64,000 bases of DNA, taken from Propionibacteriaceae bacterium. Its GTDB lineage: Bacteria; Actinomycetota; Actinomycetes; Propionibacteriales; Propionibacteriaceae. Below the pieces are notes generated by a model. It did not search any database. It was not told where the DNA came from and worked only from the letters and a program-made list of their open reading frames with translations. Shown piece by piece: positions 36,096-49,869 of the stretch (position 1 is the stretch's first letter; the number at the start of each line of letters is the position of its first letter). The translations under genes were made by a program, and so were the position numbers. The stretch is taken from NCBI GenBank assembly GCA_017306015.1, contig JAFKJK010000007.1:558001-622000 (forward strand), in the 5' to 3' direction.

Positions 36096-36406
36096 TCGGC
36101 CCGCTCCCGCCGTCCGGCGACCTCCCAGGTGATGATCACGGCCGTGACCAGGGCGAACCCGAAGCCGAAGTCCTCGATCGGGATGTCCAGCGGGAACCGG
36201 ACGCCGGCGAACTGCTGCGGCGCGTAGCGGACGATCGGGTCGCTCAGCTTCGTCAGCCAGCCGTCCACCAGGATCTGGAAGAAGAACACGATCGCCATCG
36301 CCAGCCAGTACTGCAGCCTGCCGAAGATGCCCGTCCTCGCCCACAGCAGTTCGATCGCCACGACGACGACCATGGCGGCGAGGGTGGCGACGGTGTACTC
36401 AGGCAT
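36092..36406 (-). CDS. crtYd: Lycopene beta-cyclase subunit CrtYd
   Basis: 104 residues, three transmembrane helices, with the cyclase motif PIEDFGFGF (about 81-89). It is the second half of the heterodimeric actinobacterial lycopene cyclase. The ATG at 36406 lies inside the end of crtYc (8-base overlap). It carries DGWLTKLSDPIVRY, conserved in CrtYd. Confidence 0.92.
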   Translation of the reverse strand: MPEYTVATLAAMVVVVAIELLWARTGIFGRLQYWLAMAIVFFFQILVDGWLTKLSDPIVRYAPQQFAGVRFPLDIPIEDFGFGFALVTAVIITWEVAGRRERAE

Positions 36407-36734
36407 CGGAGGCCTCCCGCGACCGTCCTCGCTGGAGCACCGTGCCGACGGCCTCATAGGTGAGCAGCCCGCAGATCGGGATCACCACGAAGAAGACCAG
36501 TTCCTCGATCGGGACGCCGCCCGGCAGCAGGACGCCGGTGGTGTGGTCGGGGCTGTAGTCCCAGTGGCCGCGGGCGATCGCGACCGCGTCCCAGACGTAG
36601 AAGACGACCACCGACGGCACCAGCGCGATCAGCAGCCGGAGCGGACGCCGGTAGACCCGGGCGCGCAGCCAGAACTCCAGCGGCAGGGTCACCAGCAGGC
36701 AGGCCGCCATCAGCAACAGGTACTCCGCCCTCAT
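36399..36734 (-). CDS. crtYc: Lycopene beta-cyclase subunit CrtYc
   Basis: 111 residues, three transmembrane helices, with VWDAVAIARGHWDYSPDHTTG and the motif PIEELVFFVVIP. It pairs with CrtYd to cyclise both ends of lycopene to beta-carotene. The ATG at 36734 shares its A with the crtB stop (TGATG). Confidence 0.93.
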   Translation of the reverse strand: MRAEYLLLMAACLLVTLPLEFWLRARVYRRPLRLLIALVPSVVVFYVWDAVAIARGHWDYSPDHTTGVLLPGGVPIEELVFFVVIPICGLLTYEAVGTVLQRGRSREASDA

Positions 36735-37600
36735 CAGGCCACCGCCCGCTGCGGGGTCAGCAGTGCTCCGGCCGCGGTCAGCGCCTTGCGCCAGGTCGGG
36801 ACGCGGGCGCGTCCGGAGAACACGTCGTAGTCGCGGGCCTCGATCCGCTGCAGGATCCGGGAGTAGAGGGTGAGCGCCGTGCCGACGCACCGCGCGGATG
36901 CCGGTGGCAGCATCGGCACCCCGGTGCGGGCGAGGTCGTACAGCTCCCGGTTGCGGGCGATCTCGAAGGCCATCACGCTGCGCCAGGCGTCGTCGACGCG
37001 CCGCCGCCAGGGGTCGGCGCCGAACCGGGCCAGGTCCTCGGCGGGGACGTACACCCGGCCGCGATCGAGGTCCTCGCCGACGTCGCGGAGGAAGTTGGTC
37101 AGCTGGAACGCGAAGCCGAGCGCGCGGGCCGGCTCGAAGGCGTCCGGTGTCAGGGGCTGCAGCACCGGCAGCATCATCTCCCCGATCACGGCGGCCGAGC
37201 CCTCCATGTAGCCGCACAGGTCGTCCCAGGTGGCGTAGCGGATCCGGGTGAGGTCGAGCTCCATCGCGCCGAAGAAACGGTCGAAGCACTCGGGGGCGAT
37301 GCCGGTCTCGGCCACCGTGTGCGCGATCGCGGCCAGGGTGTCGTCGGCCGGCTCGCCGGCCAGCGCGGCGTCGAAGGACGCCCGGAACGCCGCCAGCGCC
37401 CGGCTGGTCGCCGCGACGTCGACGGTGGTGGCGCCGTCCGCGTCCACGATGTCGTCGGCCAGCCGGCACAGCGCGTACACGGCGTAGACGTGCCGGCGCT
37501 GCTCGACCGGCAGCAGCGCGGTCCCCCAGTAGTAGGTGGTGCCGTACGCGCGGGTCAGCCGCGCGCATTCGGCGTAGCCGGCGGCCAGCTCCACGGTCAT
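36734..37600 (-). CDS. crtB: 15-cis-phytoene synthase
   Basis: 288 residues with the two aspartate-rich motifs (DDIVDADG near 49-56 and FLRDVGEDLDRGRVYVP) and YCWGT-like YYWGTALLP at the N-terminus. It condenses two GGPP into phytoene. The ATG at 37600 overlaps the crtI stop by four bases (ATGA). Confidence 0.95.
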   Translation of the reverse strand: MTVELAAGYAECARLTRAYGTTYYWGTALLPVEQRRHVYAVYALCRLADDIVDADGATTVDVAATSRALAAFRASFDAALAGEPADDTLAAIAHTVAETGIAPECFDRFFGAMELDLTRIRYATWDDLCGYMEGSAAVIGEMMLPVLQPLTPDAFEPARALGFAFQLTNFLRDVGEDLDRGRVYVPAEDLARFGADPWRRRVDDAWRSVMAFEIARNRELYDLARTGVPMLPPASARCVGTALTLYSRILQRIEARDYDVFSGRARVPTWRKALTAAGALLTPQRAVA

Positions 37601-39072
37601 CGCCGGCCCCCGAGGTAGTCGCGGACGCGGGCCGCGGCGAGCTCGCCGCTGATCAGCACCATCGGGACGCCGACGCCCGGCACCGTCCCCGACCCGGCGA
37701 AGAACACGCCCGGCAGCCGGGGTTCGACGTTGCGGGGACGGAACGGGCCGGTCTGCGCGAAGGTGTGGGCGAGGCTGAACGGCGTCCCCATGGCCAGCCC
37801 TTGGGCTGCCCAGTCGGCCGGGGTGACCAGCCGCTCGGTGACGATGTCGTCCGGATACCCGTTCGTCCGCAGGAACCGGGCCAGGCGCTCCCGCGCCGGG
37901 CCGCGCTCGGCCACCCAGTCGAGCCGTGAGCCGAGGTGCGGCACCGGCTCCAGCACGTACAGGACGCTGTGGCCCGGCGGAGCCATGCCGGGTGCGTCCA
38001 GGCTCGGGACGGTGACCAGCCGGGACGGGTCGCTCATCAGCTCCTTGCGCTTGATCAGCTGGTCGAACGAGGCCGTCCACTCGTCCCCGAAATGGATGTT
38101 GTGGTGGGCCACCGCCGGCCCGGGCAGGCCCCGCACGCCGACGTGCCAGACCAGCGCGGACGGGGACCATGCCGCTCCGGTCAGTACCCGTGGCGGCGAG
38201 AGCCGCGGCAGCAGTTCCCGGTAGGCGGTCGGCAGGTCGAGGGTGACGACCGCCGCGTCCACGGCTAGCTTCTCACCGCCGACGACCACCCCGGCGAGTC
38301 TGCCGGTCGCATCGGTGAGCAGCTCGCTGACCGGGCTGTCGTAGCGCACTCCGGCGCCGGCATCGACCAACGCGCCGGCCAGCGCCCGCGGCACCTGGTG
38401 CATGCCCCCTTCGGGGAAGTGGACGCCGGAGACGCAGTCCATGTAGGTGATCACCGCGTAGATGGCCAGCGCCTCGGCCGGCGCCAGGCCCGCATACATC
38501 GCCTGGAACGTGAACAACCGCAGCAGCCGGGGGTCGGTGAGGTGGCGGGAGACTGCCTTCTCCAGCCGTCCGAAGCCACCCAGCCGCACGAGCCTCGCAG
38601 CCGCGACCGGACGGGCGAGCAGGTCGAACACCGAGTCGAAGTTCCGCTCGATGAAGTGGGGCACCTCAGCGTCGTACAGGGCCTCCAGCCAGTCGACGAA
38701 GCCCGGAAAGGCCTCCGCGTCAGCCGTCAGTCCCCGGCTGCGCAACTCGGCGACCTGGGCGGCGACACCGGACCGGACGAGCAGTTCGGACCCGTCCGCG
38801 AAGACACCGCGGTAGGCCGGGTCCAGCTTCCGCAGCGGGAGGAGCGAGGTGCGATCGCGGCCCAGCCGGGCGAAGGCGCGGTCCAGCAGGTGCGGCATGG
38901 TGAGGACGGTCGGGCCGGCGTCGAAGACGAACCCGTCGGAGTTGAGCGTTGCCGCCCGTCCGCCGGGCTCCCCGGCCCGTTCCAGCACGACGACGTCGTG
39001 ACCGTCGCCGACCAGGTGGGCGGCGGCCGACAGCCCGGCCAGGCCGGCCCCCACCACGGCGACCCGGCTCAT
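37597..39072 (-). CDS. crtI: Phytoene desaturase
   Basis: 491 residues. N-terminal FAD motif VVGAGLAGLSAAAHLVGDGH, GGRAATLNSDGFVFDAGPT, and C-terminal GVFFAGSGTVPGVGVPMVL. It converts phytoene to lycopene by four desaturations using FAD. It overlaps crtE by four bases (ATGA). Confidence 0.95.
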   Translation of the reverse strand: MSRVAVVGAGLAGLSAAAHLVGDGHDVVVLERAGEPGGRAATLNSDGFVFDAGPTVLTMPHLLDRAFARLGRDRTSLLPLRKLDPAYRGVFADGSELLVRSGVAAQVAELRSRGLTADAEAFPGFVDWLEALYDAEVPHFIERNFDSVFDLLARPVAAARLVRLGGFGRLEKAVSRHLTDPRLLRLFTFQAMYAGLAPAEALAIYAVITYMDCVSGVHFPEGGMHQVPRALAGALVDAGAGVRYDSPVSELLTDATGRLAGVVVGGEKLAVDAAVVTLDLPTAYRELLPRLSPPRVLTGAAWSPSALVWHVGVRGLPGPAVAHHNIHFGDEWTASFDQLIKRKELMSDPSRLVTVPSLDAPGMAPPGHSVLYVLEPVPHLGSRLDWVAERGPARERLARFLRTNGYPDDIVTERLVTPADWAAQGLAMGTPFSLAHTFAQTGPFRPRNVEPRLPGVFFAGSGTVPGVGVPMVLISGELAAARVRDYLGGRR

Positions 39073-40184
39073 GCGGTCCGCCAGGCGACGCGCCGGGCCA
39101 ACGCCCGGAGCCCGGCCACGGCGGCGGGGTCGATGGCGGGCTCGTCGAGCGCGATGTACGCGGCGGCGACCGCGTCCTCGATCATTGTCTCGACCTCGGC
39201 GATCACGCCTGAGCGGACCAGCTCGCCCTGAATGTCGGCGACCAGCCGGGCCGACGCCCGTGGCGAGGACGCCCGCCGCAGCGCGCTGCGCCACCGCGGC
39301 GAGAACCGGTCGTCGGCCAGAGCCATCAGGACGGTCGGTTTGCCGGCGACGATGTCGTCCCCGACCGGCTTCCCGGTGGCGGCCGGGTCGCCGATCACCC
39401 CGAGGACGTCGTCGCGGAGCGCGAACGCCTCCCCGACGGCGAGCCCGTAGCGCTCCAGGGCGGCCAGTGTGTCCGGCGCAGCGCCGGCGGCGGTGGCGCC
39501 CAGCTGAAGCGGCCGCCACACGGTGTAGGCGCCGGACTTCGCCCGGGCCACCTCCCGGGCGTGGCCGAAGTCGCGGCGCCCGTTGGCCGCACCGACGAGG
39601 TCCCTGCCCTGGCCCATCATCAGTTCGATGACCAGCGTCCGCCACGCCGCGAGCAGTGGTGCGGGCAGGCTGGCCGCGAGCAGGTCCGCCTCGCTGTGCG
39701 CGAGGTCGCCGGCGAGGATGGCGATGTTCTCCCCGTACCGCTGCGGGTCACCGATGCCACGCAGGGTCCGATGCTGCGTCCGTGCGCTGGCGTGGACGGA
39801 CGGACGCCCGCGCCGGGTCTCGGAGCCGTCCATCACGTCGTCGTGGATCAGCGCGAACACATGGAGCAGTTCCAGCGCGGCCCCGGCGCGAACCACGTCC
39901 GCCCGGCCCCGCCCGTCCCGCTGGCCACCGGCCGCGACCCAGCCCCAGTGGGCCATCCGCGGCCGGAACCGTTTGCCGCCGGAGGAGACCATCGCCTCGA
40001 GAAGGTCCAGCACGGAGTCCGTGTGCAACACGCCGTCGCGCGGTACCACCGACCGGGCCAGTCCTGTCCAGGTGGAGCGGAGCGAGGCGATCGTCTCCGC
40101 GACCAGGGCCTCGACCTCCGCCACGGTCTCGGTGTCGGTCAGTTGCCACGGGGAGAGGTCGTGCCGGGCGTCCAGCAATGTCAT
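39069..40184 (-). CDS. crtE: Geranylgeranyl diphosphate synthase
   Basis: 371 residues of the trans-prenyltransferase family. GGKRFRPRM, the first aspartate-rich motif LIHDDVMDGSETRRGRPS and the second region LRDDVLGVIGDPAATGKPVGDD, which keeps two of the three aspartates typical of many actinobacterial CrtE. It makes C20 diphosphate for CrtB. The N-terminal ~20 residues are an extension. It overlaps idi (ATGA). Confidence 0.94.
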   Translation of the reverse strand: MTLLDARHDLSPWQLTDTETVAEVEALVAETIASLRSTWTGLARSVVPRDGVLHTDSVLDLLEAMVSSGGKRFRPRMAHWGWVAAGGQRDGRGRADVVRAGAALELLHVFALIHDDVMDGSETRRGRPSVHASARTQHRTLRGIGDPQRYGENIAILAGDLAHSEADLLAASLPAPLLAAWRTLVIELMMGQGRDLVGAANGRRDFGHAREVARAKSGAYTVWRPLQLGATAAGAAPDTLAALERYGLAVGEAFALRDDVLGVIGDPAATGKPVGDDIVAGKPTVLMALADDRFSPRWRSALRRASSPRASARLVADIQGELVRSGVIAEVETMIEDAVAAAYIALDEPAIDPAAVAGLRALARRVAWRTA

Positions 40185-40729
40185 GCGGCACCGGCCTTCC
40201 GCAGTTCGGCATCGAGCAGCGGCACCTGCAGCGCGCACCAGGGACTTACCAGCTCCGGTGCGCCGGCGACGACCTGGACGAGGTCCGCCCAGGTCACCCA
40301 GCCGGTGTCGGCGACCTCGGCCGGGTCCGGCCGCAGGGGACCGGCCAATCGCCCGATCCAGACCGGGCAGGCTTCGTCCTCGACGATGCCGGAAGCATCG
40401 ACCGCCCGATAGCCGAAATCGGGCAGGACCAGGCTCAGGCCGGTGACCCCGGCGCCCAGCTCGTCGCGGACCCGGCGGAGGACGGCGACGTCGGCTGCCT
40501 CGCCGGGACGCGGGTGCCCGCAGCACGAGTTCGTCCACACCCCCGGCCAGGTCGGCTTGCCGAGTGCGCGGCGGGTCAGCAGCACCCTGCCGTGGTCGTC
40601 GAACAGGTAACTGGAGAACGCGAGATGCCGGGGAGTGTCCGCGGTGTGCACCGCCAGCCGCGGGGCATGCCCGACTGGCCGGTCGTACTCGTCGAGGAGC
40701 ACCACCAGGTCTTCGCTCTCCGGGTTCAT
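40181..40729 (-). CDS. idi: Isopentenyl-diphosphate delta-isomerase, type I
   Basis: 182 residues, Nudix fold, with the active-site cysteine in TNSCCGHPRPGE and glutamate in GIVEDEACPV. It interconverts IPP and DMAPP, priming CrtE. It overlaps the upstream TspO-like gene (ATGA) and crtE. Confidence 0.95.
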   Translation of the reverse strand: MNPESEDLVVLLDEYDRPVGHAPRLAVHTADTPRHLAFSSYLFDDHGRVLLTRRALGKPTWPGVWTNSCCGHPRPGEAADVAVLRRVRDELGAGVTGLSLVLPDFGYRAVDASGIVEDEACPVWIGRLAGPLRPDPAEVADTGWVTWADLVQVVAGAPELVSPWCALQVPLLDAELRKAGAA

Positions 40730-41532
40730 CCGCGCGTCCCCGTTCGGGCTGGTACCCCTACAGGCTCATCGGAGCGGCGCAGGCGGGACAAGGCCGTCAC
40801 GATCAGCACTACTGCTGCGGCGACCGCTGCGGCCGTCCCGGCCAGGGCGGACGGCGGTTCGCCGGCCAGTCGGCCGACGGCGATCCAGGCCAGTCCCCAG
40901 CCCATCGCCAGGGCGACGGCGACCCGCGCGCCCAGCACCCGGGACAGCAGGACGCCGATCACCGCGGCGGTGGCGAGCACGACCACGGCCAGCCACTCGG
41001 CCGCCAGCGGCGAGGGATCGATCCCCGAGGCGACGAGGGCGGCGGTGATGTTCGCGACGGTGGCGACAGCCGTCCAGCCGAGGTAGAGGCCGAACGTCCC
41101 GTCGACGACGAGCTTGTCCACGGGTGCCTCGGCACCGATGACTCCGAGGCGGCGGACGAGTTCGCCGAGCACGGCCACCAGCGCGACGATCACCGCGACG
41201 CTCGCCCACAGCCACCCGGCCTGCGTGACCAGCAACCAGGCCCCGTTCAGCACCATCGAGGCTGCTGCCAGGCCACCGATGCTGCGCAGGCGCGGCGACG
41301 CTGCGTTGGCCGGCAGCCACTGCCAGACGACGTAGGCGAGCAGGCCCGCGTAGATGACGGACCAGATCGAGAACGCCGGACCGGCTGGCGCGACCAGCGT
41401 CGCCGTCGCCGACAGGCTGCCGCCGGCGCTCTCCTCCACCCTGCTTCCGAAGACTCCGAGACCGAAGAGGGTACCGAGCACCATGAAGGCTGCCGCGACG
41501 GTCACCACGACCTGACGGACCCTGTCCTGCAT
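40726..41532 (-). CDS. TspO/tryptophan-rich-sensory-type membrane protein, first gene of the crt operon
   Basis: 268 residues with seven or eight predicted transmembrane helices and the segment PAGPAFSIWSVIYAGLLAYV, which resembles the TspO/MBR tryptophan-rich family. It is longer than classic five-helix TspO (~160 residues). GGAGGAGAG precedes the ATG at 41532; an upstream GTG/ATG extension is less likely. Its stop overlaps idi (ATGA), so it belongs to the carotenoid operon. TspO proteins bind tetrapyrroles and affect pigment genes in Rhodobacter. A porphyrin- or light-linked role here is inference. Confidence 0.65.
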   Translation of the reverse strand: MQDRVRQVVVTVAAAFMVLGTLFGLGVFGSRVEESAGGSLSATATLVAPAGPAFSIWSVIYAGLLAYVVWQWLPANAASPRLRSIGGLAAASMVLNGAWLLVTQAGWLWASVAVIVALVAVLGELVRRLGVIGAEAPVDKLVVDGTFGLYLGWTAVATVANITAALVASGIDPSPLAAEWLAVVVLATAAVIGVLLSRVLGARVAVALAMGWGLAWIAVGRLAGEPPSALAGTAAAVAAAVVLIVTALSRLRRSDEPVGVPARTGTRG

Positions 41533-41554
41533 CTCTCCTCCTGCGTCCCAACCT

Positions 41555-41624
41555 TTGACAGACACTGCCACGGTCGTACCCTCACTCGACAGACTGCGCG
41601 TGAAACCCTAGACAAACTGCGTAG
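41555..41624. promoter_or_regulatory. Direct-repeat operator candidate between the crt operon and its B12 photoregulator
   Basis: Three direct copies of TNGACA-(G/A)AC-(NN)TGC: TTGACAGACACTGC from 41555, TCGACAGACTGC from 41586 and TAGACAAACTGC from 41609 (spacings 31 and 23 bp) in the 136-bp divergent region. CarH-type regulators contact direct repeats with successive MerR domains. The 41586 and 41609 copies also look like a -35/-10 pair 17 bp apart for the regulator gene. Confidence 0.5.
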
Positions 41625-41668
41625 CCTGCGCGTTCGCCGGTGCCGGCAGCCATAGGATCGCCACCGTC

Positions 41669-42523
41669 ATGGTCACCATCAAGAAGGCCGCTGCGATCAC
41701 CGGGGTCCCCGAGCACACCCTCCGGGCCTGGGAGCGTCGCTACGACCTGATCAGCACCGCCAGGACCGAAGCCGGCTATCGGGTCTACGACGAGGCGGCG
41801 CTGGAGCGCATCCGGGCGATGAACGACCTTGTCCGGGCCGGCTGGGCGCCGAGGGACGCGGCGGTGGAGGCGGCCCGCAACGGCCGGGGCCCGGTCGAGC
41901 GGGACGCCGATGAGCGGCTGCTGCGGGCGGCGGCCGACCTGGACGACGACGGCGTCGCCCGGGTCCTCGACGAGCAGTTCGCCCGCGGCTCCTTCGAGAC
42001 CGTGGTGGACGGGTGGTTGATGCCCGCCCTGGTCCGGCTGGGCCGGGCGTGGGCCGACCAGGAGGTGTCGGTGGCCGGAGAGCACCTCGTCAGCGCGGTG
42101 ACGATGCGCCGACTCGCCGTCGCCTACGAGGACGCCGGAGGCGGGCGGGGCGGACCGGTCGTCCTCGTCGGCGCCCCACCGGGGGTGGAGCACGAACTGA
42201 GCCTGCTGGCGTTCGCCACCGCTGCCCGCCGGGCTGGGGTGAACACGGTCTACCTCGGCGCCCAGGTGCCACCGGAGGCCTGGCGGCTGGCTGTGCTCAA
42301 GGTGAAGGCGAAGGCCGCCGTCAGCTCACTGCACCGCCGCACCGACGCCGTCCGCCTCGTCCCCGTCGCCGAGGCGCTCGCGGACGTTCGCGGGCTCGAT
42401 CTGTGGACGGGTGGTCGCCACCAGCACCGGGCACCGGCCCCCTTCCGTCCGCTCGGGCACTCGATCTCGGCGGCCGCCGCGCGGCTCGCCGGACGCCGTC
42501 CGGGGCCGGCACCGGCCGTCTGA
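41669..42523 (+). CDS. MerR-family B12-dependent photoreceptor/repressor (CarH/LitR type)
   Basis: 284 residues. MerR winged helix at 2-70 (TIKKAAAITGVPEHTLRAWE, RRYDLI). The four-helix B12-binding bundle (about 80-155) has the CarH signature W-x9-E-H (W128, E138, H139). The Rossmann-like B12-binding domain (163-245) has H175 in GVEHELSLL as the expected lower cobalt ligand. Such proteins bind adenosylcobalamin in the dark, repress crt genes and release DNA in light. The residue after W128 is alanine, whereas Thermus CarH has the photo-adduct histidine there. The proline-rich tail of about 40 residues is extra. It is divergent from the carotenoid operon. Confidence 0.9.
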   Translation: MVTIKKAAAITGVPEHTLRAWERRYDLISTARTEAGYRVYDEAALERIRAMNDLVRAGWAPRDAAVEAARNGRGPVERDADERLLRAAADLDDDGVARVLDEQFARGSFETVVDGWLMPALVRLGRAWADQEVSVAGEHLVSAVTMRRLAVAYEDAGGGRGGPVVLVGAPPGVEHELSLLAFATAARRAGVNTVYLGAQVPPEAWRLAVLKVKAKAAVSSLHRRTDAVRLVPVAEALADVRGLDLWTGGRHQHRAPAPFRPLGHSISAAAARLAGRRPGPAPAV

Positions 42524-44899: not shown

Positions 44900-46389
44900 C
44901 CCCGCTCCACGCCGGGCAGGTCGGTGGTCGCCGGACCCTCGAGCACGCGGCCGTCCGCCGTGAACCGGGAGCCGTGCAGCGGACAGTCCCAGCTGCGTTC
45001 CGCCTCGTTCCAGGTCACCACGCCGCCCAGGTGCGTGCAGACGGCCGACACCGCGCACGTCCGTCCTTCCACCGTCGACACCGCGACCGGACGGAGCCCA
45101 CGCCGTCCGACCACACCCTGGCCCTCCGCGGGCGGATCCGCCACGCTCCTGACCTCGCCGCCGAACCACCCGCGGACCGCCTCGATCCCCACGCCGCCGG
45201 TGAGCCGCGCCGCCGTCGGCCAACCGGTGACATCGGTCGCCGAGCCCAGCACGGACGCCCAGCCGGGGTGCGACCCGCCGTCCAGCTGCGCGAGCAGGCG
45301 CAGGCCCGCCGCGACCGCGTTCGTCATCCCCCACTTGTGGTATCCGGTGGCGACGAAGACCCGGCCATGGGTCCAGGGCAGCCCGCCGACCAGGGGCAGC
45401 CCGGCCGCAGGGGCGTAGTCCTGGGCGGACCAGCGGTGAGTCACCTCGGCCCCGGGGAACCAGCGACGCGTCCAGTCGTCCAGGTCGTCGACACGGTGGC
45501 GGGTATCCGCGGCTCGTCCGACCACGTGCCCGTTGCCGCCGACCAGGAGCACGTCACCGTCGCCGGTGACGGCGGGGGTGGTGCGCAACGACCGGGTCGG
45601 CTGGTCGATCGACAGGTACATGCCCTGAGGCAGCTCGCCCGGAACCTCGGCGGCCAGGGCGTAGGAACGCTGCGGTTCGAGCACCGCGAAGTGGCCGCCG
45701 CGGTCGGCCACCGGTGTTCCGGTCGCGAGCACGACCTGGTCGGCCATCAGGTCGCCTCCCGACGTGTGCAGCGCCACCCGGGCGCCGACCCTGAGCCGGC
45801 GCAGCCGGCAGCCGAGGTGGAGGACGCCACCGCAGGAGGTGAACTCGGCCAGCAGCGCGTCCAGCGCCATCGTCGGGTGGAACTGAAGCTGGTCGTCGAG
45901 CCGGATCGCACCGGCAACCGGGAAGGGCAAGCCGGTCGCGTCGTCGCGGACCACGGGAAGCCCGGCCTCGACCGCAGCGGCACGTTCGCCTTCCAGGCGC
46001 CCGATCCCGTCCCGGTCAGTGGCGTAGGTCCAGGCCGTCCGACGCTGGTACGGCACGCCGTGCGTCGCCAGGAAGCCGGCCAGCCAGTCCTGGCCGGCCC
46101 GGTTCGCGTCCGCGTAGGCGCGCAGTACCTCTGCTGAGTGTCGCCGGCGGATCCCGGAGAACAGGGCGCCCTGCAGCAGGCTGGCCTTGGCCGTCGTGTT
46201 GCCGGTCGCGACCGCCCCGACACCGCGGGCCTCGAGCAGGGCGACCCTCCGTCCGGACCGGGCCAGGAGCGCCGCTGTCACCACGCCGGTCAACCCGGCT
46301 CCCACGACCACGACATCAGCCGATTCGCCTGCCGACAGCGGGGTGCCCGTCGCGTCGATGGGACGCGTGGCAAGCCAGAACGATGTCAT
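44896..46389 (-). CDS. FAD-dependent oxidoreductase with C-terminal Rieske domain
   Basis: 497 residues. The N-terminal DAO-type FAD domain has VVVGAGLTGVVTAALLARSG and GNTTAKASLLQGALFS. The C-terminal Rieske 2Fe-2S domain has CTHLGGVVTWN and DCPLHGSRF (C-x-H and C-x2-H ligands). Such proteins oxidise amines or other small substrates and pass electrons through the Rieske centre; the substrate is unknown. The stop (CTA read on the minus strand) shares CTAG with the SDR stop. A stress-type promoter lies 36 bp upstream. Confidence 0.9.
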   Translation of the reverse strand: MTSFWLATRPIDATGTPLSAGESADVVVVGAGLTGVVTAALLARSGRRVALLEARGVGAVATGNTTAKASLLQGALFSGIRRRHSAEVLRAYADANRAGQDWLAGFLATHGVPYQRRTAWTYATDRDGIGRLEGERAAAVEAGLPVVRDDATGLPFPVAGAIRLDDQLQFHPTMALDALLAEFTSCGGVLHLGCRLRRLRVGARVALHTSGGDLMADQVVLATGTPVADRGGHFAVLEPQRSYALAAEVPGELPQGMYLSIDQPTRSLRTTPAVTGDGDVLLVGGNGHVVGRAADTRHRVDDLDDWTRRWFPGAEVTHRWSAQDYAPAAGLPLVGGLPWTHGRVFVATGYHKWGMTNAVAAGLRLLAQLDGGSHPGWASVLGSATDVTGWPTAARLTGGVGIEAVRGWFGGEVRSVADPPAEGQGVVGRRGLRPVAVSTVEGRTCAVSAVCTHLGGVVTWNEAERSWDCPLHGSRFTADGRVLEGPATTDLPGVERG

Positions 46390-46424: not shown

Positions 46425-46451
46425 GTACCCAGGGACGTGACCACCGAGACC
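46425..46451 (-). promoter_or_regulatory. SigB/SigF-type promoter of the FAD/Rieske gene
   Basis: Minus strand: GGTCT (46451-46447), 16-bp spacer, GGGTAC (46430-46425). Four of five -35 bases and all -10 bases match the stress consensus. The rest of the 330-bp divergent interval 46390-46719 shows no gene and no other signal I can support. Confidence 0.6.
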
Positions 46452-46719
46452 GATACGTTCCGGCCTCGCAGGGTAAGCACCCAATTGCCTCGGGGAGACG
46501 CCTCCTGGCTGCCCGGGCAGCCAGCGGGCGAGGTGCGCCGGTTGAAACCACAGCCGGCGCACCGCTCCGGGCGCGTCCCGCGGGGCGGGGACGCGGCTCC
46601 ACAGAAGTGCTGCACCCACCCATGCGCGCCATCAGCAGAGGTTCTATCGTGGTCGCACGAACTCCCGTGAACCAGTGGGATCCACCAAGCCCCCGGGCCC
46701 GACCCCGAATGGAGCGTCC

Positions 46720-49700
46720 ATGCCACTGCCCCCCGCCTCGGGCGACCCCGCGTCGTCGTCGCGTCGGGATCCGTCCACGCCGTGGTGGGCCGGGCTGGAG
46801 CGTCGGGGGGAGATGGGTCGCCGGTTCGTCGAGTTCGACTGGGCGGGCACCGAACTGGGACCGCTGGACGCCTGGCCGCTTGAGCTCCGGGTCGCGGTCG
46901 ACCTGTGTCTGGGCACGCTCTTCCCGACCTCGCTGCGGGTGGGAGACACCCTCCGGATGGTCTACAACGACGCCTGCCGCGAGGTCTACGGCGAGGCCCG
47001 CTTCCAGGACGCGCTCGGCCAGCCCGCCGCGGACGTGTGGCCGGAGACCACCGCGCAGGTCGGGGACCTGATCGCGACGGTCAAGGAGACCGGCCGGCCC
47101 TACTTCTTCTCCGACCGGCCGCTCTACCTCAACCGGGTCGTCGACTCCGAGGAGTGCTACTTCACCCTCTGTTTCAGCGCGCTCGACGCCGAGGACGGCT
47201 CCGTCCTGGCCGTCGTGGCGACGTTCGTCGAGACGACGAGACAGGTCCTCGCCGAGCGTCGGCTCAGCACCCTGGCCCGCGTCGGACGGGCGGTCTCCCA
47301 GTCCGGGACGGAAGCCGAGCTCGCCCGGGCAGCCCTGCCCGTCCTGGCCGAGAACGCAGCCGACCATCCCTCCGGTGCGCTCTACCGGGCACCCAGGGCG
47401 TCGGCCGCCCGGGCGGCGCCGTTGGCCGAGTTCGGCCGGGTCGAGGACGCTGCCGCCGTCCTCACGCTCGTCGAACACTGCCGCTCGGCGGCCGCCGTCC
47501 AGCATGACGGCACGCTGCACGCCTTCCCGATCATCGCGCCGGAGCAGGAGTCGCCGAGCCACGTCCTGGTCCTGCGCCACAACGACGCCCGACCCTGGGA
47601 CGCCGAACTGGACACGTACTTCGGCCTCCTCGCCACCACCATCGGCGCCGCACTCATCGACCAGGGCGAGCTGTGGGCCGAACGGCGGCAGGTGGCCCGC
47701 GCGGCAGCGCTCGACGCAGCCAAGTCCGCGTTCTTCGCCGGCGTGAACCACGAGCTGCGGACTCCGCTGTCCCTGATCTCGGCACCCGTCGAGGCCCTGT
47801 CCGAGCGCCGCGGCGAATTGCCGCCCGACGTCGTGCGGCACGTTGACCTCGTCCGGTCCAATGCCGCCCGACTCGCCCGGATGGTCGACGCGATGCTGGA
47901 CTTCAGCCGGATGGAGGCCGGCAGGCTGCTTCCCGACCTCGACTCGGTCACCGTCTCCGAGCAGATCCGCACCCTGGCGACCGCGTTCGCGCCGGCCGTC
48001 GAGCAGGCCGGGCTCCGCTTCGTCGTCGACGTGCCGGAACTGTCGCGGGCAGCCCTGGTCGATGCCGACTTCCTGGAACGGATCGTGCTGAACCTGCTCT
48101 CCAACGCGGTGAAGTTCACCGCCACCGGCACCGTCGAGCTGAGGCTGGTGGAGGACGGGGATCGCTACCAGATCGCGGTGACCGACACCGGACCGGGGAT
48201 CGACGCCGAGGACCACGAGCGGATCTTCTCCCGGTTCGAGCGGATCGCGCCGCCGGCCGGCGCGCGAGCCCCCTGGGGTGCCGGGATCGGCCTGGCGATG
48301 GTCCGGCAGCTCACCGGGCTGCTGGGGGGAACGGTGACCCTGCGCTCGGCGCCGGGAGAGGGCAGCACGTTCACCGTCCGGCTGCCCTTCGTCCCGCCGC
48401 TCGACCCGGGGACGCGCGGCCAGTCGGTGACGCCCCGCCGGGTCGAGTCGTTCCTGGCCGAACTGGAGCGCCCGGCGGAGCCTGCGACCGGAGAGGACGA
48501 CGGACGCCCGCGGCTGCTGATCGTCGAGGACGACGGCCAGATGGCGTCCTTCCTCGCCGATTCGCTCGCCGACTCCTACCGGGTCGAGATCGCCACCGAC
48601 GGCGAGTCCGGCCTGGCCGTGTTGCGGGAACGCCGGCCCGACATCGTGCTCTCCGACGTGGCGATGCCCGGAATGGACGGCGTGGAACTCGTCCGTCGGG
48701 TACGCGCCGACCCGGCGCTGCGCGACCTGCCCGTCCTGCTGCTCTCAGCCCACTCGGACGACCACTCCTCGGCCAGCGGCCTCGACAGCGGTGCCGACGA
48801 CTACATCGGCAAGCCGTTCACGATCGTCGACGTGCGGGCCCGGCTGGCCGCGCACCTCAGCCGCGCCCGGGAGCGCAGCCTGGACGCCGACTGGCGACGT
48901 GCGGCGCTGAGCGGCATCCGGGACGGTGTCCTGGTGCTGGATTCCGACGGCCTGGTCATCGAGATGAACCAGGCATTCACCGACCTCGTCGGGTACAGCA
49001 TGGACGACGGCCCGCTGCGTCCGCCGTATCCGTGGTGGCCGACCGAGCAGGAGGATCCCGAGGCGCTCGCCGAGTTGCGGCGGGCTCTCGCCGAGCTTGC
49101 CGACGGCGTCCAGGGCTCGGGTGAGTTCCGGATCTACCGCCGCGACCGGCGTCCGCTGTGGGTGTGGATCGGGGGCGGCCGCGTTCGCCATCAGCAGAGC
49201 GGGCTGACCGCGGCCGTCCGTACCGTCCGGGCCATCGACCGGGAACGTGCCGCCCGCGAGCGCCGCCTGGCCGCGGCCCAGGTCAGCGCCGATTTCAGTT
49301 CAGCCGACGATCTCGACACCCTGCTGGGTGCGGCCGAGCACGGCTTCAGCGTGCTCTTCGACGGCGGGAGCACCGTCCGGCTGAAGCTGAACGGCAAGGA
49401 ACTCCTGATCAGCGGCGGGTTGCAGGTGACCGCCGAGAACCTGCCCGAGCAGGTCAGCACGGGGCTGGCCGGTGAGCCGAGCGCGGACGCGACCAGCCTG
49501 CGCCCCGGGATCCTGCTGGTGCCGCGCAGCGCCGAGACCGACTGCCGCGCGTGGATCCAGTTCCCGTCGCCGCGCCGGATCTGGCCGGACGAGATGATCG
49601 TCGCCGACCTCCTCGCGCAGGCTTTCGCCCTGGCGGTGGACCGGGTGGTCGCGGCGGAGACCGCGGCCGACCGGGAGACGAACCTCGAGCACGCGGTGGA

Positions 49701-49869
49701 GAGCCAGCGGCTGGTCGGCCAGGCCGTCGGCATCCTGATCGAACGCCACCGGATCTCGCCGAACGAGGCCTTCCAACTCCTGCGCAGCGCCAGCCAGAAC
49801 CGAAACCTCAAGCTGCGCGAGGTGGCCAGCCGGGTGATCGAGACCGGCCTGGAACCGGACGACGCCTGA
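46720..49869 (+). CDS. Hybrid histidine kinase: PAS - HisKA/HATPase - receiver - PAS - ANTAR
   Basis: 1049 residues from ATG 46720 (GGAG upstream; GTG 46675 is possible). Residues 35-175 are PAS-like (GTELGPLDAWPLELRVAVDL). Residues 185-315 are probably a GAF-type region. HisKA has phosphoacceptor H344 (FFAGVNHELRTPLS), and HATPase has N-box LLSNAVKF and G boxes DTGPGID and GAGIGLAM. The receiver (598-712) has D646 and K698. A second PAS spans about 728-840 and an unassigned alpha/beta region 855-985. The ANTAR RNA-binding domain is at 992-1045 (LVGQAVGILIERHRISPNEA, FQLLRSASQNRNLKLREVA). ANTAR domains cause transcription antitermination. Their fusion to a complete hybrid kinase is unusual. 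No membrane helix is visible, so it is cytoplasmic. Confidence 0.92.
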   Translation: MPLPPASGDPASSSRRDPSTPWWAGLERRGEMGRRFVEFDWAGTELGPLDAWPLELRVAVDLCLGTLFPTSLRVGDTLRMVYNDACREVYGEARFQDALGQPAADVWPETTAQVGDLIATVKETGRPYFFSDRPLYLNRVVDSEECYFTLCFSALDAEDGSVLAVVATFVETTRQVLAERRLSTLARVGRAVSQSGTEAELARAALPVLAENAADHPSGALYRAPRASAARAAPLAEFGRVEDAAAVLTLVEHCRSAAAVQHDGTLHAFPIIAPEQESPSHVLVLRHNDARPWDAELDTYFGLLATTIGAALIDQGELWAERRQVARAAALDAAKSAFFAGVNHELRTPLSLISAPVEALSERRGELPPDVVRHVDLVRSNAARLARMVDAMLDFSRMEAGRLLPDLDSVTVSEQIRTLATAFAPAVEQAGLRFVVDVPELSRAALVDADFLERIVLNLLSNAVKFTATGTVELRLVEDGDRYQIAVTDTGPGIDAEDHERIFSRFERIAPPAGARAPWGAGIGLAMVRQLTGLLGGTVTLRSAPGEGSTFTVRLPFVPPLDPGTRGQSVTPRRVESFLAELERPAEPATGEDDGRPRLLIVEDDGQMASFLADSLADSYRVEIATDGESGLAVLRERRPDIVLSDVAMPGMDGVELVRRVRADPALRDLPVLLLSAHSDDHSSASGLDSGADDYIGKPFTIVDVRARLAAHLSRARERSLDADWRRAALSGIRDGVLVLDSDGLVIEMNQAFTDLVGYSMDDGPLRPPYPWWPTEQEDPEALAELRRALAELADGVQGSGEFRIYRRDRRPLWVWIGGGRVRHQQSGLTAAVRTVRAIDRERAARERRLAAAQVSADFSSADDLDTLLGAAEHGFSVLFDGGSTVRLKLNGKELLISGGLQVTAENLPEQVSTGLAGEPSADATSLRPGILLVPRSAETDCRAWIQFPSPRRIWPDEMIVADLLAQAFALAVDRVVAAETAADRETNLEHAVESQRLVGQAVGILIERHRISPNEAFQLLRSASQNRNLKLREVASRVIETGLEPDDA

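Follow-up and report, generated by a model that had tools for sequence, protein, structure and literature searches.

The window analysed here, a stretch of 64,000 nucleotides from the genome of a Propionibacteriaceae bacterium, contains an open frame of 1049 amino acids (46720-49869, forward strand), for which a GTG located upstream at 46675 represents a possible earlier start that would add 15 residues. The gene encodes one protein, in which a complete hybrid histidine kinase is joined to an ANTAR output domain (table 1). The initial annotation had read from the sequence a single polypeptide with the order PAS / GAF-like / HisKA-HATPase / receiver / PAS / X / ANTAR, X being a segment without assignment. 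The open frame and the Pfam matches bear this order out, and the alignment placed H344, D646 and K698 at the residues given there. The HMM search of the C-terminal helices also recovered the ANTAR domain proposed for them (PF03861), with 71.5 bits against a curated cut-off of 27.3. Residues ~186-320 have no Pfam match of their own, and they aligned in hhalign with the part of the sister kinases described below that Pfam recognises as GAF_2 (98%, E 8e-14). The presence of kinase, receiver and ANTAR on one chain thus stands on the domains, while RNA binding by that chain, the other part of the claim, is something that we infer.

Besides H344, D646 and K698, the acidic (ED) pair and the N and G boxes of the kinase are all intact in the window protein. 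The phosphoacceptor His, the N and G boxes and the receiver Asp, Lys and acidic pair are conserved in every fused relative, which indicates that the kinase is under selection where it has been kept. Kyte-Doolittle analysis revealed no long hydrophobic stretch or convincing membrane segment, the highest 19-residue mean being 1.65, at an amphipathic helix within the second GAF; describing the protein as soluble is therefore reasonable. The protein matched neither a LOV-type cysteine motif, in a pattern search, nor a SpoIIE (PP2C) output domain in Pfam.

Among the neighbours of the gene are oxidoreductases of the SDR and DAO-Rieske types and, accompanied by a MerR-B12 regulator, a carotenoid cluster. 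Judged by eye, the carotenoid/isoprenoid cluster (36228-42520) comprises frames resembling a phytoene desaturase-like amino oxidase, a prenyl synthase and IDI. The MerR-B12-binding regulator beside it is reminiscent of the light-responsive LitR/CarH, and a carotenoid cluster also lies beside the fusion gene of another family member (L037).

Table 1. Features of the fusion gene and of its upstream region in the window
Feature	Position	Strand	Basis
Hybrid histidine kinase-ANTAR protein gene	46720..49869	+	Open frame, Pfam domains, equal architecture in independent genomes
N-terminal PAS domain, residues 82-175	46963..47244	+	Pfam PAS_4, whole-protein 1e-15, best stretch 82-175
N-terminal GAF-like domain, residues ~186-320	47275..47679	+	hhalign to sister-kinase GAF_2 region
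HisKA dimerisation/phosphoacceptor domain, 334-401	47719..47922	+	Pfam 5e-15; H344 at 47749-47751
HATPase_c kinase domain, 448-557	48061..48390	+	Pfam 4.9e-28
Receiver (Response_reg) domain, 600-709	48517..48846	+	Pfam 1.6e-23; D646 at 48655-48657, K698 at 48811-48813
Second PAS domain, 727-827, with the family's PPYPWWP motif	48898..49200	+	Pfam PAS 1.9e-9; conserved columns
Second, divergent GAF domain, ~840-980	49237..49659	+	AlphaFold2 pLDDT 91, VIA-align, colinearity with pre-SpoIIE segment
Single predicted helix of ~55 residues (956-1010), from GAF to ANTAR helix 1	49585..49749	+	DSSP on AlphaFold2 models
ANTAR domain, 988-1040	49681..49839	+	Pfam 4.9e-20; superposes on EutV and Rv1626/PdtaR
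Weak candidate ANTAR target, two A..G.. hexaloop hairpins	46445..46490	-	Highest-scoring pair in the window

A second GAF domain and the SpoIIE-output sister kinases

The segment 855-985, which was initially described as matching nothing, proved to have a GAF fold, and we rejected the idea of a novel domain. In AlphaFold2 models built on 26-28 natural sequences (pLDDT 89-91), residues 840-980 matched the GAF domain of PDE6 with a VIA-align Z of 12.3 (rmsd 3.4 over 146 residues), that of PDE2A with 12.2 and that of PtsP with 12.0. Moreover, hhalign profile comparison showed that these residues are colinear with the pre-SpoIIE part of the sister proteins (132 columns, 89%, E 2e-6), which indicates that this domain came with the rest of the chassis. 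Compared directly with the N-terminal GAF of these kinases, the segment gave no significant hhalign match, and its assignment as GAF rests on the structure match together with the homology to the pre-SpoIIE segment. The final helix of the domain is predicted to extend unbroken for about 55 residues into the ANTAR domain.

The sister proteins, of 1340-2054 amino acids, were found in Mycobacterium, Amycolatopsis, Microbispora, Micromonospora and uncultured Pseudonocardiales. They share with the window protein the whole chassis PAS-GAF-HisKA-HATPase-REC-PAS-divergent GAF, but end in a SpoIIE phosphatase, followed in several of them by an RsbW-like kinase, where the window protein has ANTAR. In a tblastn search, for instance, residues 31-892 of the window protein were covered at 36% by a protein of a Mycobacterium gordonae plasmid (NZ_CP070974) annotated as "SpoIIE family protein phosphatase". 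In the tree of the HK-REC core, ANTAR and SpoIIE versions clustered together to the exclusion of every other kinase tested (100/99), which makes them nearest kin, and the ANTAR versions were monophyletic, with support of 100/100 in the larger tree and 87/91 in the reduced one. Based on this kinship, the two types look like one chassis with exchanged outputs.

The direction of such an exchange is another matter. The ANTAR clade was nested inside the SpoIIE clade in our first tree (95/83). A monophyletic SpoIIE group was not rejected by the AU test, however (p 0.54), and the nesting was lost in a tree without long branches. A swap from SpoIIE to ANTAR is therefore unsupported, and neither direction is favoured. 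A single frame of another actinobacterial genome (G169; L133:3169-5709) carries ANTAR, PAS and SpoIIE, that is, both outputs on one chain.

Distribution of the family and its kinase-less relatives

A scan of 85,000 species genomes found the family in Propionibacteriaceae and close kin (Propionicimonas, Micropruina, Tessaracoccus and Propionibacterium cyclohexanicum) and in Intrasporangiaceae (Intrasporangium and Humibacillus). Among 147 genomes of the same taxonomic family as the window's, 28 were positive, the weakest of them matching the ANTAR domain only, and the C-terminal PAS-X-ANTAR module occurred in many, in frames of 362-1076 amino acids. The full order PAS-(GAF)-HK-REC-PAS-X-ANTAR was found at L057, L058, L060, L075, L078, L079, L081 and L083; at least nine genomes, including that of the window, carry the full architecture, and N-terminally shorter versions exist at L049, L072 and L074. 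The fusion is rare, since only four of the 103 ANTAR matches in 59 other actinobacterial genomes lay in frames of 600 amino acids or more and none of these four was HK+REC+ANTAR: one was a REC-ANTAR in a longer shadow frame, one an ANTAR-PAS-SpoIIE and two were ANTAR-GAF-PAS. No paper on an HK-REC-ANTAR fusion was found in the open-access literature, to which our search was confined. The family is small, actinobacterial and absent, as far as descriptions go, from the literature searched. A natural minimal version occurs in Tessaracoccus lapidicaptus (L087:8744-10255), whose HK-REC-ANTAR protein of 504 amino acids has neither PAS nor GAF between receiver and ANTAR.

An intact kinase is missing from 17 of the 30 family members analysed, in which PAS-GAF-ANTAR is nevertheless retained. 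These kinase-less relatives have 362-558 amino acids and are 44-71% identical to the window protein over PAS-GAF-ANTAR; in fact, the nearest kin of the window's own output half is one of them (L059), and Tessaracoccus bendigoensis is a cultivated species with this form. The output half can therefore stand alone, and phosphorylation is not needed in those relatives. Several of them preserve traces of the missing part: L045/L071 has a receiver in which the Asp was replaced by Glu and the Lys was lost, L040/L062 a receiver and no more of the ATPase than its tail, L041/L080 a degenerate receiver, whereas L039/L061 lost kinase and receiver internally and retained the N-terminal GAF. We also considered that the kinase might have split off into a neighbouring gene, and rejected it, as no candidate appeared other than two ordinary HK/RR pairs ~8 kb away.

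The tree requires at least four changes of kinase state. Repeated loss of the kinase appears likelier than repeated gain, because the fused state occurs in both bacterial families and the full chassis in the sister group. An alternative explanation is that PAS-GAF-ANTAR is in essence a one-component sensor-regulator, receiving its main signal through the second PAS and GAF, with the kinase-receiver half as a modulator in the course of being lost and phosphorylation as a secondary influence. The short relatives that retain PAS-GAF-ANTAR, the decaying remnants in L071/L045 and L062/L040 and the recurrent changes of state all point in this direction, as does the finding that the flanks of most kinase-less relatives contain no HK/REC homologue close to the window's. 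However, all catalytic residues are intact in all fused members, including those of the deep Intrasporangiaceae branch, indicating selection there, and we regard the one-component explanation as possible but somewhat unlikely. The kinase half is most likely a conserved but losable input to the ANTAR output.

The ANTAR domain and its possible RNA targets

In the AlphaFold2 model, 66 residues of the window protein's ANTAR domain superpose on EutV (VIA-align Z 11.3, rmsd 1.6) and 58 on Rv1626/PdtaR (Z 10.0, rmsd 1.6). We mapped the RNA contacts of EutV (PMC8934654) onto 26 family members through a profile alignment. In EutV, Arg142 and Lys149 are two of the three polar residues that hold the hexaloop guanine (G4), and Met172 is essential (PMC8934654). 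The equivalent of Arg142 is His or Gln and that of Lys149 is Val, Ile or Thr in all 26 members; Met172 corresponds to Gln in 25 and to His in one. Tyr164 is replaced by Phe and Arg175 by Asn throughout the 26, Arg168 corresponds to R/K and Arg177 to K/R, and Glu160 to P. With the counterparts of Arg142, Lys149 and Met172 replaced, binding of the canonical hexaloop is doubtful. Nevertheless, PAL, an RNA-binding ANTAR protein (PMC12797116), lacks equivalents of Glu160 and Met172 just as the family does, but retains the Arg and Lys. RNA binding by the family's ANTAR is, to judge from these residues, plausible, although its specificity is uncertain.

The search for targets was directed at pairs of hairpins. 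The highest-scoring pair in the window (46445-46490) was found 56 nt ahead of the start codon of a divergent DAO-Rieske oxidoreductase gene (ATG at 46389). Its score was reached in 27 of 300 shuffled windows (9%), that is, within chance; its first hairpin was not formed in the RNAfold structure, and the motif was missing from two orthologues (L038 and L043). As a candidate ANTAR target it may serve as a lead only. No conserved dual hairpin was found upstream of the sigma gene discussed below or of the family's ANTAR genes, and an Rfam scan of the 64-kb window returned no match. Canonical antitermination by the window protein can thus only be conjectured, given that two G4-contact residues are replaced in 26 of 26 members and that neither the window nor the regions upstream of the sigma and family genes yielded a convincing dual-hairpin target.

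These same results could be taken to mean that the domain no longer binds RNA hexaloops at all, and works instead through dimerisation or contacts between proteins, for example, on a SigB/SigF-type sigma factor or its regulators. The replacements of Arg142 and Lys149 across the family and of Met172 by Gln would fit, and so would a hairpin target conserved nowhere that we looked (the window and upstream of sigma and family genes), the SpoIIE/RsbW-like outputs of the sister proteins and the linkage of the family to a sigma gene. Even so, the fold superposes at 1.6 A, Phe is kept for Tyr164, Arg or Lys for Arg168 and Lys or Arg for Arg177, with Asn for Arg175 in 26 of 26, and PAL is a characterised RNA-binding ANTAR protein despite its own missing contacts. 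We regard this reading as unlikely.

Sigma gene linkage and proposed mechanism

Matches to SigB/SigF-type sigma factors at E 1e-20 or better were present in 15 of the 16 genomes examined, in effect one gene each (one of the 15 has two partial pieces, both located where contigs end). In 10 of these 15 genomes this only close SigB/SigF-type gene lies within ~5 kb of the family gene, often adjacent to it. By chance, such linkage would be expected in ~0.6% of genomes, and the naive binomial tail, which ignores shared ancestry, is 1e-19. For several of the sigma genes (L053:2166-3041 and orthologues), no short RsbW-like frame stood out in a HATPase_c_2 search. In mycobacteria, a receiver-PP2C protein and its cognate kinase feed the SigF switch (PMC7693655, PMC10950880). 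By this analogy, the chassis is plausibly a stress input; for an action of the family on a sigma factor, the gene linkage gives no more than a hint. In the genome of the window, the sigma gene (C1:289885) lies away from the fusion gene, which counts against the interpretation given below, and no SpoIIE domain was detected anywhere. Four other ANTAR genes occur there within 7 kb (G000:C1:305945-312325, L054), ~15 kb from the lone close SigB/SigF-type sigma gene.

With moderate confidence, we interpret the window protein as a cytoplasmic, stress-sensing hybrid histidine kinase whose ANTAR output controls stress-related transcripts; phosphotransfer, passage of the signal, RNA binding and the targets are what we infer. 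The N-terminal PAS/GAF pair would sense signals and set autophosphorylation at H344, from which the phosphate would pass to D646 of the built-in receiver. Phosphorylation of D646, combined with the input of the second PAS/GAF pair, would then be transmitted down the continuous helix into ANTAR, whose dimeric RNA binding would thereby be controlled, and with it the expression of stress-related transcripts. This interpretation is supported by the domains and their intact residues, by the occurrence of the full architecture in at least nine genomes, by the PAS-GAF-helix-ANTAR arrangement in the AlphaFold2 models, by the superposition of ANTAR on EutV and PdtaR, by the kinship with SpoIIE-output kinases and by the sigma linkage. 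The replaced RNA contacts, the lack of a conserved hairpin near family genes and the 17 kinase-less relatives speak against it. A broader scenario, in our judgement unlikely, is that a phosphatase/anti-sigma chassis exchanged its output for an RNA-binding ANTAR of altered specificity which, in Propionibacteriaceae and with or without the kinase, would control or cooperate with the only general-stress sigma factor of the SigB/SigF type.

That the gene results from an assembly fusion or frameshift joining two genes, the case in which the initial annotation would have fallen, can be dismissed as practically nil, for the same uninterrupted architecture is found in named isolates and independent MAGs of Propionibacteriaceae and Intrasporangiaceae (Intrasporangium calvum, I. 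chromatireducens, Humibacillus xanthopallidus and Propionicimonas).

Control through ANTAR is normally either shared between a kinase and a response regulator on different polypeptides or contained in a one-component sensor. The kinase-receiver-ANTAR protein, its kinase-less relatives and its SpoIIE sisters form a natural series in which to ask how one sensory chassis drives very different outputs, and whether control of general stress can shift from partner switching to the level of RNA. With its RNA-contact residues changed throughout, the family also offers a way of testing how broad ANTAR recognition is.

EutV of E. faecalis and Rv1626/PdtaR of M. tuberculosis, both under the control of receiver phosphorylation (PMC8934654, PMC3369931), place a receiver before ANTAR, as the window protein does, and a helix lies between the two. 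However, their kinases (EutW and PdtaS) are separate and their helix directly follows the receiver, whereas in the window protein kinase, receiver and PAS-GAF share one chain and neither of the two G4 contacts discussed above is kept. Mycobacterial SigF is controlled by Rv1364c and the RsfSR system, which are likewise stress regulators, multidomain or coupled to a receiver, that act on a SigB/F-type sigma factor (PMC7693655, PMC10950880), but their output is PP2C/RsbW partner switching, and the family's tie to sigma is one of gene linkage. PAL (PAS-ANTAR-LOV) of Nakamurella multipartita and the GAF-ANTAR proteins also combine a sensor domain with ANTAR on one polypeptide (PMC12797116), but have no kinase or receiver, and the order of PAL differs. 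The window's genome has a GAF-ANTAR protein of its own (P0003).
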